Part shown: positions 8,158 to 37,397 of the stretch, one piece after another
How the letters are laid out: every line of letters starts with the position of its first letter
How positions within the stretch are numbered: the first letter of the stretch is position 1
Assembly (NCBI RefSeq): GCF_002198715.1
Contig: NZ_MWLK01000026.1
Coordinates: 1-64,000 of the forward strand
DNA length: 64,000 nucleotides
Reading direction: 5' to 3'
Source: Rhodomicrobium sp. R_RK_3
GTDB lineage: Bacteria; Pseudomonadota; Alphaproteobacteria; Rhizobiales; Rhodomicrobiaceae
Position numbers and translations under genes: made by a program
The notes under the pieces: generated by a model
Database searches by the model: none
What the model saw: the letters and a program-made list of their open reading frames with translations, nothing else
What the model was told of the DNA's origin: nothing

Positions 8158-8472
8158 ATGTCTGCGTCGACAGCGCCGCTTGCCCAAGCGGCCAGCCTGA
8201 CCGCCACGCCTCCCGAGGCCGCGGCCAAAACCTATTTTTTCCTCACCGGCGAAAGCGCTTACGACCTCCTGCCACGCGTGCTGATCCCCTTCACCAAGCT
8301 GGGGCTGGTGCCCTACCGCGTGCATGCCTCGACGGAGCAGGGCGCCGGCGAGGAGATGTCGATCGAGCTGCGCTTTTTCGGCCTCACGGCGGCGGCTTCG
8401 GAAACGCTCGCCGCGCGCTGCCGCGCCATCATCGGCATCCGCACGGTGATGACGGTCGCCGAGGCCGGCTGA
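8158..8472 (+). CDS. Small protein with possible ACT-like fold
   Basis: 104 residues with AAGGA 7 nt before the ATG. After an Ala-rich lead, the segment TYFFLTGESAYDLLPRVLIP and what follows (strand, helix, FTKLGLVPYRVHAS, IELRFFGL, helix, IRTVMTVAEAG) suggests a beta-alpha-beta-beta-alpha-beta ACT-type regulatory module like the small subunit of acetolactate synthase. No catalytic partner is adjacent. The fold is judged by eye from the alternating pattern and no ligand can be named. It may be a stand-alone amino-acid sensor or simply a conserved hypothetical protein. Confidence 0.6.
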   Translation: MSASTAPLAQAASLTATPPEAAAKTYFFLTGESAYDLLPRVLIPFTKLGLVPYRVHASTEQGAGEEMSIELRFFGLTAAASETLAARCRAIIGIRTVMTVAEAG

Positions 8473-8483
8473 GGCCCGGCCAA

Positions 8484-8512
8484 AGAAAAAGGCGAGCCCT
8501 GTAAGGCTCGCC
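8484..8512 (-). terminator. Rho-independent terminator
   Basis: GGCGAGCC, a 6-nt loop and GGCTCGCC (8491-8512) form a perfect 8-bp stem. On the minus strand it is followed directly by TTTTTCTTTG. On the plus strand no T-run follows, so it mainly serves the minus-strand transcript. Confidence 0.7.
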
Positions 8513-8631
8513 TGAGGATCACACTTTTGGGGAACACCGTTGCCTCAAGCCCCGACCAGAGGAAAGTCCCCGGGGGGCGGGGGCTTGTACCGATGCCTCG
8601 GGACAAATGCGACCGGGGCGTTGAGGCAACT
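8484..8631 (-). ncRNA. Candidate small RNA gene with promoter, long hairpin and intrinsic terminator
   Basis: Read on the minus strand, a stretch of about 148 nt begins 7 nt after a TAAAAT -10 element. It folds back through a perfect 10-bp stem, GTTGCCTCAA (8539-8548) pairing with TTGAGGCAAC (8621-8630), extended inward by GCCCC/GGGGC. An inner GTCCC/GGGAC pair encloses a loop with a C-rich tract (five C, G, six C). It ends in a perfect 8-bp hairpin followed by TTTTTC. No convincing protein is encoded here. I do not recognise the RNA as 6S, 4.5S, RNase P or tmRNA. Confidence 0.6.
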
Positions 8632-8637
8632 GTCTAC

Positions 8638-8666
8638 ATTTTAATGATCAATAAGGCACCGCGAAG
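8638..8666 (-). promoter_or_regulatory. Putative promoter of the small-RNA candidate
   Basis: On the minus strand, TAAAAT (8638-8643) forms a good -10 and CTTCGC (8661-8666) a weak -35, with 17 bp between them. The predicted start falls at about 8630-8631, exactly at the base of the long RNA stem. Confidence 0.45.
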
Positions 8667-8870
8667 GGCAAACTGGGGCACTTTCGTGATTGTTGTTGCG
8701 CCGCTGCTCAACCAGAGCGTGGCCTTCCGCACTTCCTGGAAATTGTGCGGTGCGGCGCGCAAGGCGCGGGCGCATAAGGGGTTTTTTCTTGGGATGAAGC
8801 GGCCATCTAGGACTTGATCTTTCCACGGACCGCCTTGATGATACGGAATCTGGAAAGATCGGGAGGCGCG

Positions 8871-9257
8871 ATGAGCGATATCGAACCCATAGTTTTTCGC
8901 CCTGCTGGAGAGGGATTTGTCCAGCCGGGCTTGGCGCTCACCCACGGGCGGCCGCATTATATCAGCTTCAACCGCGCCGAATTGAACCAACTGCTTTCGG
9001 TTTACGGCCGGCAGGTCGCGGAAGGCGAATGGCGCGATTACGCCATCGACATGCTGCGCGACCGCGCGGTGTTTTCCGTTTTCCGCCGCACCGCCGAGGC
9101 CCCGCTCTACCGCATCGAGAAGAACCCGAAACTCGCGCGCAAGCAGGGCGCCTATAGCGTCATCGCCGCCACCGGGCTGATCCTAAAGCGCGGCCATGAG
9201 CTTTGCCGCGTGCTGCGCGTCTTCGACCGGGCAAAGCTCGAACTCGTCAAGCTCTAG
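8871..9257 (+). CDS. DUF2794 family protein
   Basis: 128 residues from the ATG at 8871, with GGGAGG 5 nt upstream. The core (ISFNRAELNQLLSVYGRQVA, WRDYAIDM, AVFSVFRRTAEAPLYRIEKN, GAYSVIAATGLILKRGHEL, LRVFDRAKLELV) matches the DUF2794 family, which is essentially restricted to Alphaproteobacteria. Function is unknown. It is a single-domain soluble protein. No operon partner is evident; the gene is preceded by the small-RNA candidate and followed by a VOC protein. Confidence 0.85.
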   Translation: MSDIEPIVFRPAGEGFVQPGLALTHGRPHYISFNRAELNQLLSVYGRQVAEGEWRDYAIDMLRDRAVFSVFRRTAEAPLYRIEKNPKLARKQGAYSVIAATGLILKRGHELCRVLRVFDRAKLELVKL

Positions 9258-9370: not shown

Positions 9371-9808
9371 ATGCGTAGCGGGGACGAGCAGATGCGGGCG
9401 CCGGGGACCTTCCTGTGGAACGAGCTTCTGACCAACGACGCCGAGGGCGCGTCGGCCTTTTATTCGCAGCTTTTCGGCTGGCAGTCGTTCAATCCCGACG
9501 GGCTTGAGGACCGCGCCGTCCCGGAGCCGGAGAAAAGCGGGCCGCCGCACACGATCTGGATGATGGGTTTTACCCAGATCGGCAGCATGCGCGGGCTGCC
9601 CGAGGCGCATCAGGCGCGCTCGCCGGTCTGGATGCCGTTCATTACCGTCAATGATGTCGATGAATCCGCCCGGCAGGCGCGGGAACTCGGCGGCAGCGTA
9701 CTGGAGGAGCCCTTCAACGTCCCCAATACCGGCCGCTTCGCCATCCTCCTCGATCCGCAAGGCGCGGTCTTCGGCGTCGGCAAGCCATTCCTGTCGGAGG
9801 CGCGATAA
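9371..9808 (+). CDS. VOC (glyoxalase/bleomycin resistance) superfamily protein
   Basis: About 145 residues. The N-terminal GTFLWNELLTNDAEGASAFY and FGWQSFN, the central PVWMPFITVNDVDESARQAR, and the C-terminal GRFAILLDPQGAVFGVGKP are the paired beta-alpha-beta-beta-beta modules of VOC proteins. The substrate cannot be told from sequence. ATG 9371 has AGGGG close upstream; ATG 9392 (MRAPGTF) with GGGGAC is a plausible later start. A bidirectional hairpin lies just after the stop. Confidence 0.85.
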   Translation: MRSGDEQMRAPGTFLWNELLTNDAEGASAFYSQLFGWQSFNPDGLEDRAVPEPEKSGPPHTIWMMGFTQIGSMRGLPEAHQARSPVWMPFITVNDVDESARQARELGGSVLEEPFNVPNTGRFAILLDPQGAVFGVGKPFLSEAR

Positions 9809-9840
9809 AAAACGCCAGCGGCGAACCGCTGGCGTAAAAA
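9807..9840. terminator. Bidirectional hairpin terminator between convergent genes
   Basis: CGCCAGCGG, CGAA, CCGCTGGCG (9813-9834) is a perfect 9-bp stem with a tetraloop. It is preceded by six A and followed by TAAAAA. Minus-strand reading gives the better T-run, so it can end the oxygenase/ada transcript, while also closing the VOC gene. Confidence 0.7.
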
Positions 9841-10000
9841 GGAGGAAGGCTTATGGGAGGAGGAAGAATAGCCTTCTGTCGATAGGCCGAAGATGATTGT
9901 TCCTACCGCAGCGCACAATGAGGGGTTTTGCATAGGCACCATGCCATTTTGCATAGATCCCAATATCTTACCTTTTGTATTGCATTCATCTCCGCCAGCA

Positions 10001-27574: not shown

Positions 27575-30500
27575 ATGGAATTAGATCGGCGTAGTTTCCT
27601 GAAAGCTGGTGGAGGTGCGGCGCTCGCTTCGAGCATGGCCGTGCTGGGCTTCGGTGAAGACCAGAAGGCGCTCGCTCAAGCGGTTCGCCCCTTCAAGCTT
27701 GCCAGGACAACTGAGACGCGCAACACATGCCCCTATTGCTCGGTGAGCTGCGGCATCCTGATGTATTCGCTCGGCGACAAATCCAAGAACGCCAAGCAGG
27801 AAGTCATCCATATCGAAGGCGATCCCGATCACCCGGTCAATCGCGGCACGCTGTGCCCGAAAGGCGCGGGTCTTCTGGATTTCGTCCATTCCAAGACGCG
27901 CACGAAATATCCGCTGCACCGGAAGCCCGGCTCGGATAAGTGGGAGCGCGTGTCCTGGGATTTCGCGCTCGACCGCATCACCAAGCTGATGAAGGAAGAC
28001 CGCGACAAGAATTTCGTCGCGACCAATCCTGAAGGCGTGACGGTCAATCGCTGGTTGACGACGGGCATGCTCGCCGCTTCGGCCACGACCAACGAGACGG
28101 CGTTCATGACCTGGAAGACGGTCCGCTCTCTCGGCATGGTGGTATTCGATAACCAGGCGCGTGTTTGACACGGACCGACGGTGTCCAGTTTGGGCCCAAC
28201 ATTCGGTCGCGGTGCGATGACAAATACCTGGATGGACATCAAGAATTCTGATGTCATCGTGATCATGGGCGGCAATGCCGCCGAAGCCCACCCATGCGGT
28301 TTCAAATGGGTGACGGAAGCCAAGGCGCATAACAAGGCGAAGCTGATCGTCGTCGATCCCCGCTTCACCCGTTCCGCGTCCGTGGCCGATTACTATTGCC
28401 CGATCCGTCCCGGCACCGACATCGCCTTCCTCGGCGGCGTCATCAATTACCTTCTGAGCAACGATTTGATTCAGAAGGAATATGTGCTGAACTTCACAAA
28501 TGCCGCCTATATCGTGAAGCCGGAATTCGGCTTTAAGGACGGCTTGTTCACGGGCTATGACGAGGTCAAGCGCGACTACGACAAGTCGAGCTGGGACTAC
28601 GAGATCGGCGAGGACGGGTTCGCCAAGGTCGACATGACCTTGCAGGATCCGCGCTGCGTCTATCAGCTCATGAAGCAGCATTATTCCCGCTACACGCCGG
28701 AACTGGTCGAGCGCATCTGCGGCTCGCCCAAGGAGAAGTTCCTGAAAGTCGCCGAGTACATGGCTTCGACCTCGAAGCCCGACAAGGCGATGACCTCGAT
28801 GTACGCGCTGGGCTGGACGCAGCATTCCAAGGGCGCCCAGAACATCCGCACCATGGCGATGGTCCAGCTTTTGCTGGGCAATATCGGCGTGCGCGGCGGC
28901 GGCATGAATGCGCTTCGCGGCCACTCCAACATCCAGGGGCTGACCGACGTCGGGCTGATGTCGCATCTGATGCCGGGCTATCTCAACATGCCCACGCAGA
29001 AGGAGCCTGACCTCGCAACCTATATGAGTTCGCGCGGCTTCAAGCCCTTGCGTCCCGGTCAGACCAGCTATTGGCAGAATTACAAGAAGTTCTTCGTCAG
29101 CTTCCAGAAGTCGATTTTCGGCAAGGCGGCGACGGCGGAGAATGACTGGGCCTATAATTACCTGCCCAAGCTCGATGTCACCTACGACATCCTGCGCGCT
29201 TTCGACCTGATGTATAATGGCAAGATGAACGGGTACATCTGTCAGGGCTTCAATCCCCTGATGTCGTTCCCGAACAAGGCCAAGAATCTTCAGGCGCTGG
29301 CCAAGCTGAAATGGCTGGTGGTGATGGACCCGCTGCAAACGGAAACGGCCCGTTTCTGGGAAAACCACGGCGAGTTCAACGATTCGAAGCCTGAGGAAAT
29401 CCAGACCGAAGTGTTCGAGCTGCCGACCACCAGCTTCGCCGAGGACGAAGGGTCGCTGACCAACTCCTCGCGCTGGCTGCAATGGCACTGGCCGGGCCAG
29501 GAGCCGCCCTACGAGACCAAGACCGACATCGACATCATGGCGGAGATCTTCCTCCGGCTGAAGACGATGTATGTCAATGAAGGCGGTGCCTTCCCCGATC
29601 CGATCCTGAACCTCACCTGGAACTACCAGACGCCTCATGCTCCGACGCCTGAGGAACTGGCCAAGGAGCTGAACGGGCGCGTGCTCGAGGACATCACCGA
29701 CCCGGCCGATCCGACCAAGATCATCCTGGCGGCGGGCAAACAGCTCGACGGCTTTGCCCAGCTCACCGACGACGGCAAGACCGCCTGCGGCTGCTGGATC
29801 TATTCCGGCTGCTTCACCGATGCCGGCAATCAGATGGCACGGCGGGATACGACCGATCCCGGCGGCACCGGCCTGGCCCCGAAATGGACCTGGGCCTGGC
29901 CGGCCAATCGGCGCATCCTTTACAACCGCGCTTCCGCCGACGTGGCGGGCAAGCCGTGGGCGCCGCAAAAGCCGCTCATCCAGTGGAATGGCAGCCGCTG
30001 GGTCGGTTTCGACGTGCCCGATTACGGCCCGACCATCAAGCCGGAGCAGTCGGTCGGCCCGTTCATCATGCAGCAGGAGGGCGTTGCCCGCCTGTTCGCC
30101 CGCACCGGCATGCGGGAGGGACCGTTCCCGGAGCATTACGAGCCGATGGAAGCCCCGATCGCCAATCTGATGAGCCCGGCGATCAAGGGCAATCCGGTGG
30201 CCCGCATGTTCAAGGGCGACCGGGAGGCCCTGGGCAGCGCCGAAAAATTCCCCATCGTGGCGACGACCTATCGCCTGACGGAGCACTTCCATTATTGGTC
30301 GAAGCACGTCTTGCCGAACGCCGTCATGCAGCCGGAATTTTTCGTCGAGATGTCCGAACAGCTCGCCGCCGAGAAGGGCATCAAGATCGGCGGCTGGGTG
30401 AAAGTCTCCTCGAACCGCGGCTTCGTCAAAGCCAAGGCCGTGGTCACGAAACGGCTGCAGCCGCTGAAGGTCGACGGCAAGGTCCAGCACGTCATCGGCA

Positions 30501-37299: not shown

Positions 37300-37397
37300 G
37301 GAAGAGATACGTTCCCGGTGGTGCGGCTGGCCTTCAAAGCCAGTGGAGGCCGTTTAGAGCGGTCTTTCGTGGGTTCGACTCCCACTCTCTTCCGCCA
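37300..37397 (+). tRNA. selC: tRNA-Sec (UCA anticodon)
   Basis: 98 nt. The 8-bp acceptor stem GGAAGAGA/TCTCTTCC, discriminator G and encoded CCA are visible. The anticodon stem GGCTGGC/GCCAG encloses loop CTTCAAA with anticodon TCA. A long variable arm and the T arm GTGGGTTCGACTCCCAC follow. The extended acceptor stem and large variable arm are diagnostic of tRNA-Sec, which reads UGA. Confidence 0.97.

Follow-up and report, generated by a model that had tools for sequence, protein, structure and literature searches.

Positions 8690–8482 on the minus strand of the window (the whole 64,000-nucleotide stretch of Rhodomicrobium sp. R_RK_3 DNA analysed here) read as a complete small-RNA gene, as predicted from the sequence. 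The first-pass annotation had proposed a structured small-RNA gene on this strand, and the proposal is strongly supported by homology, by covariation within the family and by a conserved promoter; the transcript itself is predicted. Although that annotation could match the RNA to no named family, comparison with relatives identifies it as a diverged BjrC174 homologue (Rfam RF02355), and Agrobacterium PmaR is probably homologous too. The family looks to be a little-studied one, common to many soil bacteria, in which the window copy appears strongly altered. In our view the RNA rather probably acts in trans, as an envelope-stress-activated small RNA of the ChvI type that would pair with G-rich mRNA sites through its C-rich segments.

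Gene anatomy of the window copy

Read 5′ to 3′ on the minus strand, the gene consists of an ATCACG box, three CC steps in 11-bp phase, a −10 element, a fold-back, a linker and a terminator. The ATCACG element (8685–8690) is a copy of the conserved (A)TCACA found upstream of the phased repeats (columns −59 to −57). It is followed at 8655–8679 by a putative ChvI-type operator, assigned from its phasing and from the reported ChvI consensus, with NCC triplets at −49 (GCC, 8679–8677), −38 (CCC, 8668–8666) and −27 (GCC, 8657–8655). The −10 element TAAAAT, identified by sequence at 8643–8638, stands 7 nt before a 92-nt fold-back (8630–8539), the ends of which, GTTGCCTCAA and TTGAGGCAAC, form ten perfect base pairs, and an intrinsic terminator with a T-run occupies 8513–8482. 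The −10 element, the fold-back and the terminator had been described in the first-pass annotation and were confirmed on the minus strand.

The R1 match (see below), the promoter distance and the fold place the predicted small RNA at 8482–8630, about 140–149 nt in length, with +1 at 8630 (GTTGCCTC). This predicted start is 27 nt past the third GCC, compared with 25 nt in the PmaR-like loci. From the fold and the R1 alignment, the fold-back (8539–8630) comprises the base stem, P1 and a P2/C-rich head. The head contains the C-rich segment CAAGCCCCCGCCCCCCGGGG (8568–8587), which is the counterpart of the family loop CAGCCCCCCAGCCCC, and the largely unpaired pyrimidine stretch ACUUUCCUCUGG (8556–8567), its anti-Shine-Dalgarno-like word. 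The linker (8514–8538) carries UUCCCC and includes GTGTTCCCCAAAAGTGTGA, which is identical in the closest relative examined (G001). All of these features are on the minus strand; the divergent neighbour on the plus strand (8871–9257) encodes a DUF2794 protein (PF10984, 137 bits).

The predicted fold of 8634–8484 (minus strand, 151 nt) has a free energy of −69.3 kcal/mol, and none of 200 dinucleotide shuffles was equally stable (mean −52.8, z = −3.94). P2 is absent from the predicted minimum-energy fold. Ensemble prediction shows the 5′ GUUGCCUC as fully paired and gives the first five C's of the C-tract a mean unpaired probability of 0.19, while five C's of the next run lie inside a loop. The C-tract that had been described as exposed is therefore open in its second run and mostly paired in its first.

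Homology and distribution

A scan of 8300–8900 with Rfam found nothing at the gathering threshold and BjrC174 was unlisted even at E ≤ 10; the window copy falls short of the curated RF02355 cut-off of at least 45 bits with the Rfam model. The DUF2794-upstream regions of many relatives share a clearly conserved element, and in two of these the Rfam BjrC174 model scored 53.1 and 47.7 bits (gathering threshold 45), with lower scores in the others. The Rfam check that the first-pass annotation had pointed to was negative for the window copy.

A covariance model, R1, was built with the window left out from the 33 relatives in alignment A1, which remained when near-duplicates and two odd loci (L031 and L082) were taken from 40 sequences. 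It matched the window at 8630–8540 on the minus strand (36.2 bits; E = 5.3e-7 over the 64 kb) and scored 18.8 bits on the plus strand of the same locus; in the whole genome the match has E = 4.7e-5 and is the only one at E ≤ 1. When applied to 121 genomes (the window's own and 120 relatives), R1 found matches in 89 at E ≤ 1 and in 84 at E ≤ 0.01, so the family is common in the window's order. The copy in the 8.0-Mb genome G041, which is divergent from DUF2794, scored 47.0 bits with R1 and 175.5 bits with the Rfam BjrC174 model, and G041 is taken as Bradyrhizobium-like because of the latter score.

The second model, R2, was made from 92 sequences and includes the window. Separately, 102 matched rows were reduced to 95, as two were duplicates, one was cut off and four lay on the opposite strand, and to 93 by removing two identical cores. 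At E ≤ 0.01, R2 matched 96 of the 151 genomes of the bacterial family of G075. Twelve of 190 genomes taken from across the class, counting the window's own, were also matched, and nine of 29 class-level DUF2794 loci had a match at E < 1e-3, these 29 being the best-scoring of 101 DUF2794 genomes, with two belonging to the window's order. Two adjacent copies of the RNA were observed at L044, L047, L165, L191, L231 and L240, the second copy of L165 being weak (20 bits); the pairs at L044, L047, L165, L231 and L240 sit upstream of DUF2794.

None of the other seven genomes of the window's bacterial family (eight genomes in total) gives a convincing match, and neither R1 nor R2 finds the rewritten core of G001. 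This pattern, together with the largely paired first C-tract, would be expected if the lineage were losing the family and the window copy were a non-functional, degenerating relic. Against this, the window copy has kept its promoter phasing and a base stem that pairs perfectly, and its linker and terminator are intact as well. In G001 the locus upstream of DUF2794 (L042) has a rewritten stem and loop but keeps the phased promoter box (by eye), the fold-back, the linker word GTGTTCCCCAAAAGTGTGA and the terminator, and so looks more like remodelling than decay. We consider a relic unlikely.

Fold and C-rich loop of the family

In the family fold an unpaired C-rich loop is enclosed by two helices, both of which covary. 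In alignment A1, double-sided changes are present in 16 of 18 pairs, and the share of cells that pair is 92.9%; for A3, an alignment fitted to the model, the corresponding values are 18 of 18 and 93.8%. None of 500 shuffles reached the covariation and pairing values of either alignment, and the covariation that the first-pass annotation had suggested looking for upstream of DUF2794 in relatives is accordingly found in both helices. The window, as placed in the R1 alignment, has one non-standard pair of ten in P1 and two of eight in P2.

The loop CAGCCCCCCAGCCCC is near-invariant and mostly stays as it is, while its closing helix is free to change; many Rhizobiaceae copies read CCCCAAGCCCCCCGCCC in its place. 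Among 91 members (two without a CCCC run in range are omitted), the first C-tract has a median unpaired probability of 0.90 and a value of at least 0.8 in 76, compared with 0.19 in the window. Here the window reads AAGCCCCC--GCCCCC with the first tract mostly paired, and an unpaired CAGCCCCCCAGCCCC loop is absent; many accepted Rhizobiaceae members likewise depart from CAGCCCCCCAGCCCC in sequence. Terminators were detected by a simple rule in 57 of 93 members, compared with 6 to 10 in each of five shuffled controls, and 29 of these 57 have CCCC in the linker (shuffled mean 10.6, maximum 18). The linker word GGTTCAATCCCC is common to several genera (L049, L094, L098, L109, L113, L114 and L134) and by eye resembles a tRNA T-arm. 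A text search of the literature for the loop words returned nothing related by title. The plus-strand word GAGGAAAGTCC resembles what we take to be a conserved RNase P segment, but many relatives read GAAGACCCC there, and for this reason RNase P mimicry was dropped as chance.

The first-pass annotation had compared the C-rich loop to anti-Shine-Dalgarno RNAs. In a cuckoo-type RNA of this kind, exposed C or pyrimidine words block the ribosome-binding sites of many mRNAs, and the largely unpaired ACUUUCCUCUGG, the UUCCCC of the linker and the separate ar14-like element with UCCUCCUCCC 1.2 kb away would all suit such a role. However, the near-invariant family loop CAGCCCCCCAGCCCC contains no CCUCC, the 5′ GUUGCCUC of the window copy is fully paired, and the label is unsupported as written, since here the first C-tract is for the most part paired. 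Furthermore, PmaR, the relative that has been studied, is reported to act at sites in 5′ UTRs and coding sequences that are not confined to the Shine-Dalgarno region, and its regulation is mostly positive (PMC6234868). An anti-Shine-Dalgarno role therefore seems to us improbable.

The near-invariance of the loop next to a freely varying closing helix would also be consistent with a decoy, whose C-rich loop would sequester an RNA-binding protein in place of mRNA pairing; this is quite improbable in our judgement, since in vitro binding of PmaR to murB and ampC RNA is reported, as is its loss when CCCA is changed (PMC6234868). The reading that we prefer is pairing with mRNA. By analogy with the PmaR loop mutant, in which a CCCA-to-UUUU change at 58–61 is reported to abolish regulation (PMC6234868), the C-rich segments of the window RNA would act by base-pairing. 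The head of the window copy differs, so three segments are candidates for the working part: the five-C loop, UUUCCUCU and the UUCCCC of the linker.

Promoter and the ChvI motif

Upstream regions that were at least 75% identical were removed before the promoter counts. The 78 non-redundant regions show conserved GCC at −49, −38 and −27, TCA at −59 and GTTGCCTC at +1. NCC/GYC triplets in strict 11-bp phase are present in 61 of the 79 regions counted, as against a mean of 0.73 and a maximum of 3 after shuffling, and GCC-N8-GCC in 52 of 79 family promoters (shuffled mean 1.83, maximum 6); the other spacers tested (4 to 12) occur in at most 11 of 79. The window promoter keeps the phase, with GCC-CCC-GCC in register, and lacks the exact in-register GCC-N8-GCC because its middle triplet is CCC. 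The window has both the phased promoter and the divergent DUF2794 gene, each of them usual but not universal in the family.

For Sinorhizobium ChvI the reported consensus is N-GCC-N8-GCC (PMC9731502, citing Ratib 2018), and the match of the phased-CC/GCC-N8-GCC pattern of the family promoters to this spacing appears to be new. The Caulobacter motif in the same paper, TTGC-N3-GCAA with GCC mostly in the middle (PMC9731502), differs from the family promoter box. ChvI-ChvG is reported to be acid-responsive, and PMC6234868 reports a higher PmaR level at pH 5.5; taken with the operator spacing, these reports suggest that ChvI controls the small RNA. CenR was considered as the box-binding factor and rejected, as its reported motifs differ: TGA-N8-TGA in Rhodobacter, and in Sinorhizobium a bound promoter with an inverted repeat.

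A search with the box pattern, allowing one mismatch, gave 29 matches in 27 of the 121 genomes, whereas the reversed pattern gave none. R1 loci account for 20 of the 29. Four others (L370, L377, L378 and L388) are followed, on inspection by eye, by C-rich fold-backs absent from the R1 matches; L378 folds weakly, and R2 recovers L370 alone of these four, at 17.4 bits. L377 (G099:C137) shares its genome with a normal copy and is the second C-rich fold-back there to be driven by the box. Three matches (L379, L380 and L381), from three species of genus g15, precede an ORF of 457 aa or more that looks lipoprotein-like. The one of these ORFs that was scanned with Pfam (L380) has LysM and M23 domains; in a report on Caulobacter the ChvI-bound promoters singled out include dipM, and the g15 protein may be DipM-like. 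The last two matches, one of them on another contig of the window's genome, look like chance.

The divergent DUF2794 gene

Seventy R1-matched loci, a part of all R1 matches, were examined for their neighbours. In 51 the RNA gene lies upstream of an opposite-strand DUF2794 gene, in 19 there is no DUF2794 in the stretch, and no other arrangement was seen. Seven R1-positive genomes lacked a DUF2794 match in the protein search, and none of them (three are less than 90% complete) has DUF2794 over the Pfam cut-off, which indicates that the RNA does not require DUF2794; one has a sub-threshold match (E = 0.005). Five of the seven have strong RNA matches, and the phased box is present in all five. DUF2794 was accordingly rejected as a regulator or obligate partner of the small RNA, given the R1-positive genomes without it. 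No confident relative of its predicted fold (pLDDT 81) was found: the best E from Foldseek was 0.29, and the best Z from VIA, 7.2, falls within the background stated for it. The Brucella DUF2794 gene BAB1_0087 appears in a gene table in the section of PMC10746212 on MucR as a silencer.

A cis element of the DUF2794 leader on the plus strand is highly improbable: the fold-back comes close to self-complementarity and a fold is predicted for the plus strand as well (z = −3.41), but R1 scores 36.2 bits on the minus strand against 18.8 on the plus strand, the terminator T-run and conserved promoter suit the minus strand only, and 19 of the 70 R1 loci are without DUF2794 in the stretch.

Proposed mode of action

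The trans-acting small RNA that we favour builds on the gene anatomy, homology, family covariation, promoter phasing and DUF2794 synteny observed above. It would be a free-standing gene whose promoter, with phased GCC/NCC repeats, is bound by ChvI, and ChvG-ChvI, sensing acid or envelope stress, would presumably switch on its transcription. The resulting RNA of about 145 nt would be held by the long base stem and ended by the intrinsic terminator, and its single-stranded C-rich segments, in the head loop and linker, would pair with G-rich mRNA sites, altering the stability of mRNAs for cell-wall, division or transport proteins. Transcription in this organism, activation by ChvI, action by base-pairing and targets of this kind are inferred.

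A bolder version, which we put forward tentatively, is that the RNA is an ancient alphaproteobacterial one, the RNA arm of the ChvG-ChvI response in Hyphomicrobiales and beyond, and that in the window the pairing site has moved to the linker UUCCCC and the pyrimidine stretch UUUCCUCU of the head while the head C-tract has been folded away. If the proposal is correct, one small-RNA family and a conserved switch would join the so far unconnected Bradyrhizobium and Agrobacterium RNAs to a two-component system that is needed for symbiosis, virulence and envelope integrity, and a family for which no assigned regulator was found would gain a direct question, that of chvI-dependence. The promoter box, moreover, reveals candidates that are too diverged for covariance models.

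Comparison with known small RNAs

The ar14/cuckoo RNAs (RF02344) resemble the window RNA in being alphaproteobacterial and having C-rich loops, but differ in the CCUCCUCCC loops of the Rfam consensus, and no Rfam match to ar14 was found in 8300–8900 at E ≤ 10. A separate ar14/cuckoo-like small-RNA candidate, with a UCCUCCUCCC loop and a terminator, lies at 9807–9914 on the minus strand, 1.2 kb away on the far side of DUF2794 (35.9 bits; gathering threshold 58.8). The same 64-kb window has a SECIS_3 element and a selenocysteine tRNA at 28163–28221 and 37300–37393 on the plus strand. ChvR of Caulobacter crescentus is reported to be, as we propose here, a small RNA under ChvI-ChvG that is induced at low pH. 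It differs, as described, in adjoining recF, in being specific to C. crescentus, in its length of 84 nt and in pairing through its second and third stem-loops. ChvR was rejected as an orthologue on its locus and its description as species-specific.

PmaR (formerly C10) of A. tumefaciens is described as a spoon-like RNA with a C-rich loop, with T1 cuts at G18, G19, G62 and G81 and G47 closing the loop; regulation is reported for murB, ampC, cheD and others, and the RNA is said to be restricted to Agrobacterium and Rhizobium sp. IRBG74 (PMC6234868). The text of PMC6234868 available to us does not mention ChvI, ChvG or BjrC, and the literature searched contained no paper naming both BjrC174 and PmaR. 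In the Agrobacterium-like genus g304 (39 species), R2 matched 37 of 39 genomes at E ≤ 5 (best E 0.003), the best match per genome scoring 23–30 bits. The best plasmid match to one piece of g304 sequence was from Agrobacterium salinitolerans (85.6% over 35%), and another piece was unmatched. All 30 g304 loci examined fit every printed PmaR position with one shared +1 and are divergent from DUF2794. The phased box is present in 27 of them, with 25 nt from its third GCC to that +1. Among the 2647 CCCAG words in all loci examined the PmaR fingerprint occurs 45 times, 33 with a family-like CCCCCAGCCCC (the 30 g304 loci included) and 12 without.

Judged from its printed positions rather than from a published sequence, PmaR is probably the Agrobacterium member of the BjrC174 family, and the link of these g304 loci to PmaR appears to be new. 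PmaR resembles the family in its stem with a C-rich loop, in its divergence from DUF2794 in the Agrobacterium-like genus and, mostly, in the same phased box, whereas the PmaR-like loci are strongly diverged in sequence from the R1/R2 family. The window copy does not carry the printed set G18, G19, G47, CCCA58–61, G62 and G81, its C-region having no CCCAG. BjrC174, which has been called an abundant small RNA with a promoter reported active in a test, shares with the window copy the homologous core, P1/P2, the C-rich head and, in G041, the divergence from DUF2794; the window copy differs from it in falling below Rfam detection, and its base stem is longer, its C-region shorter and paired in part.
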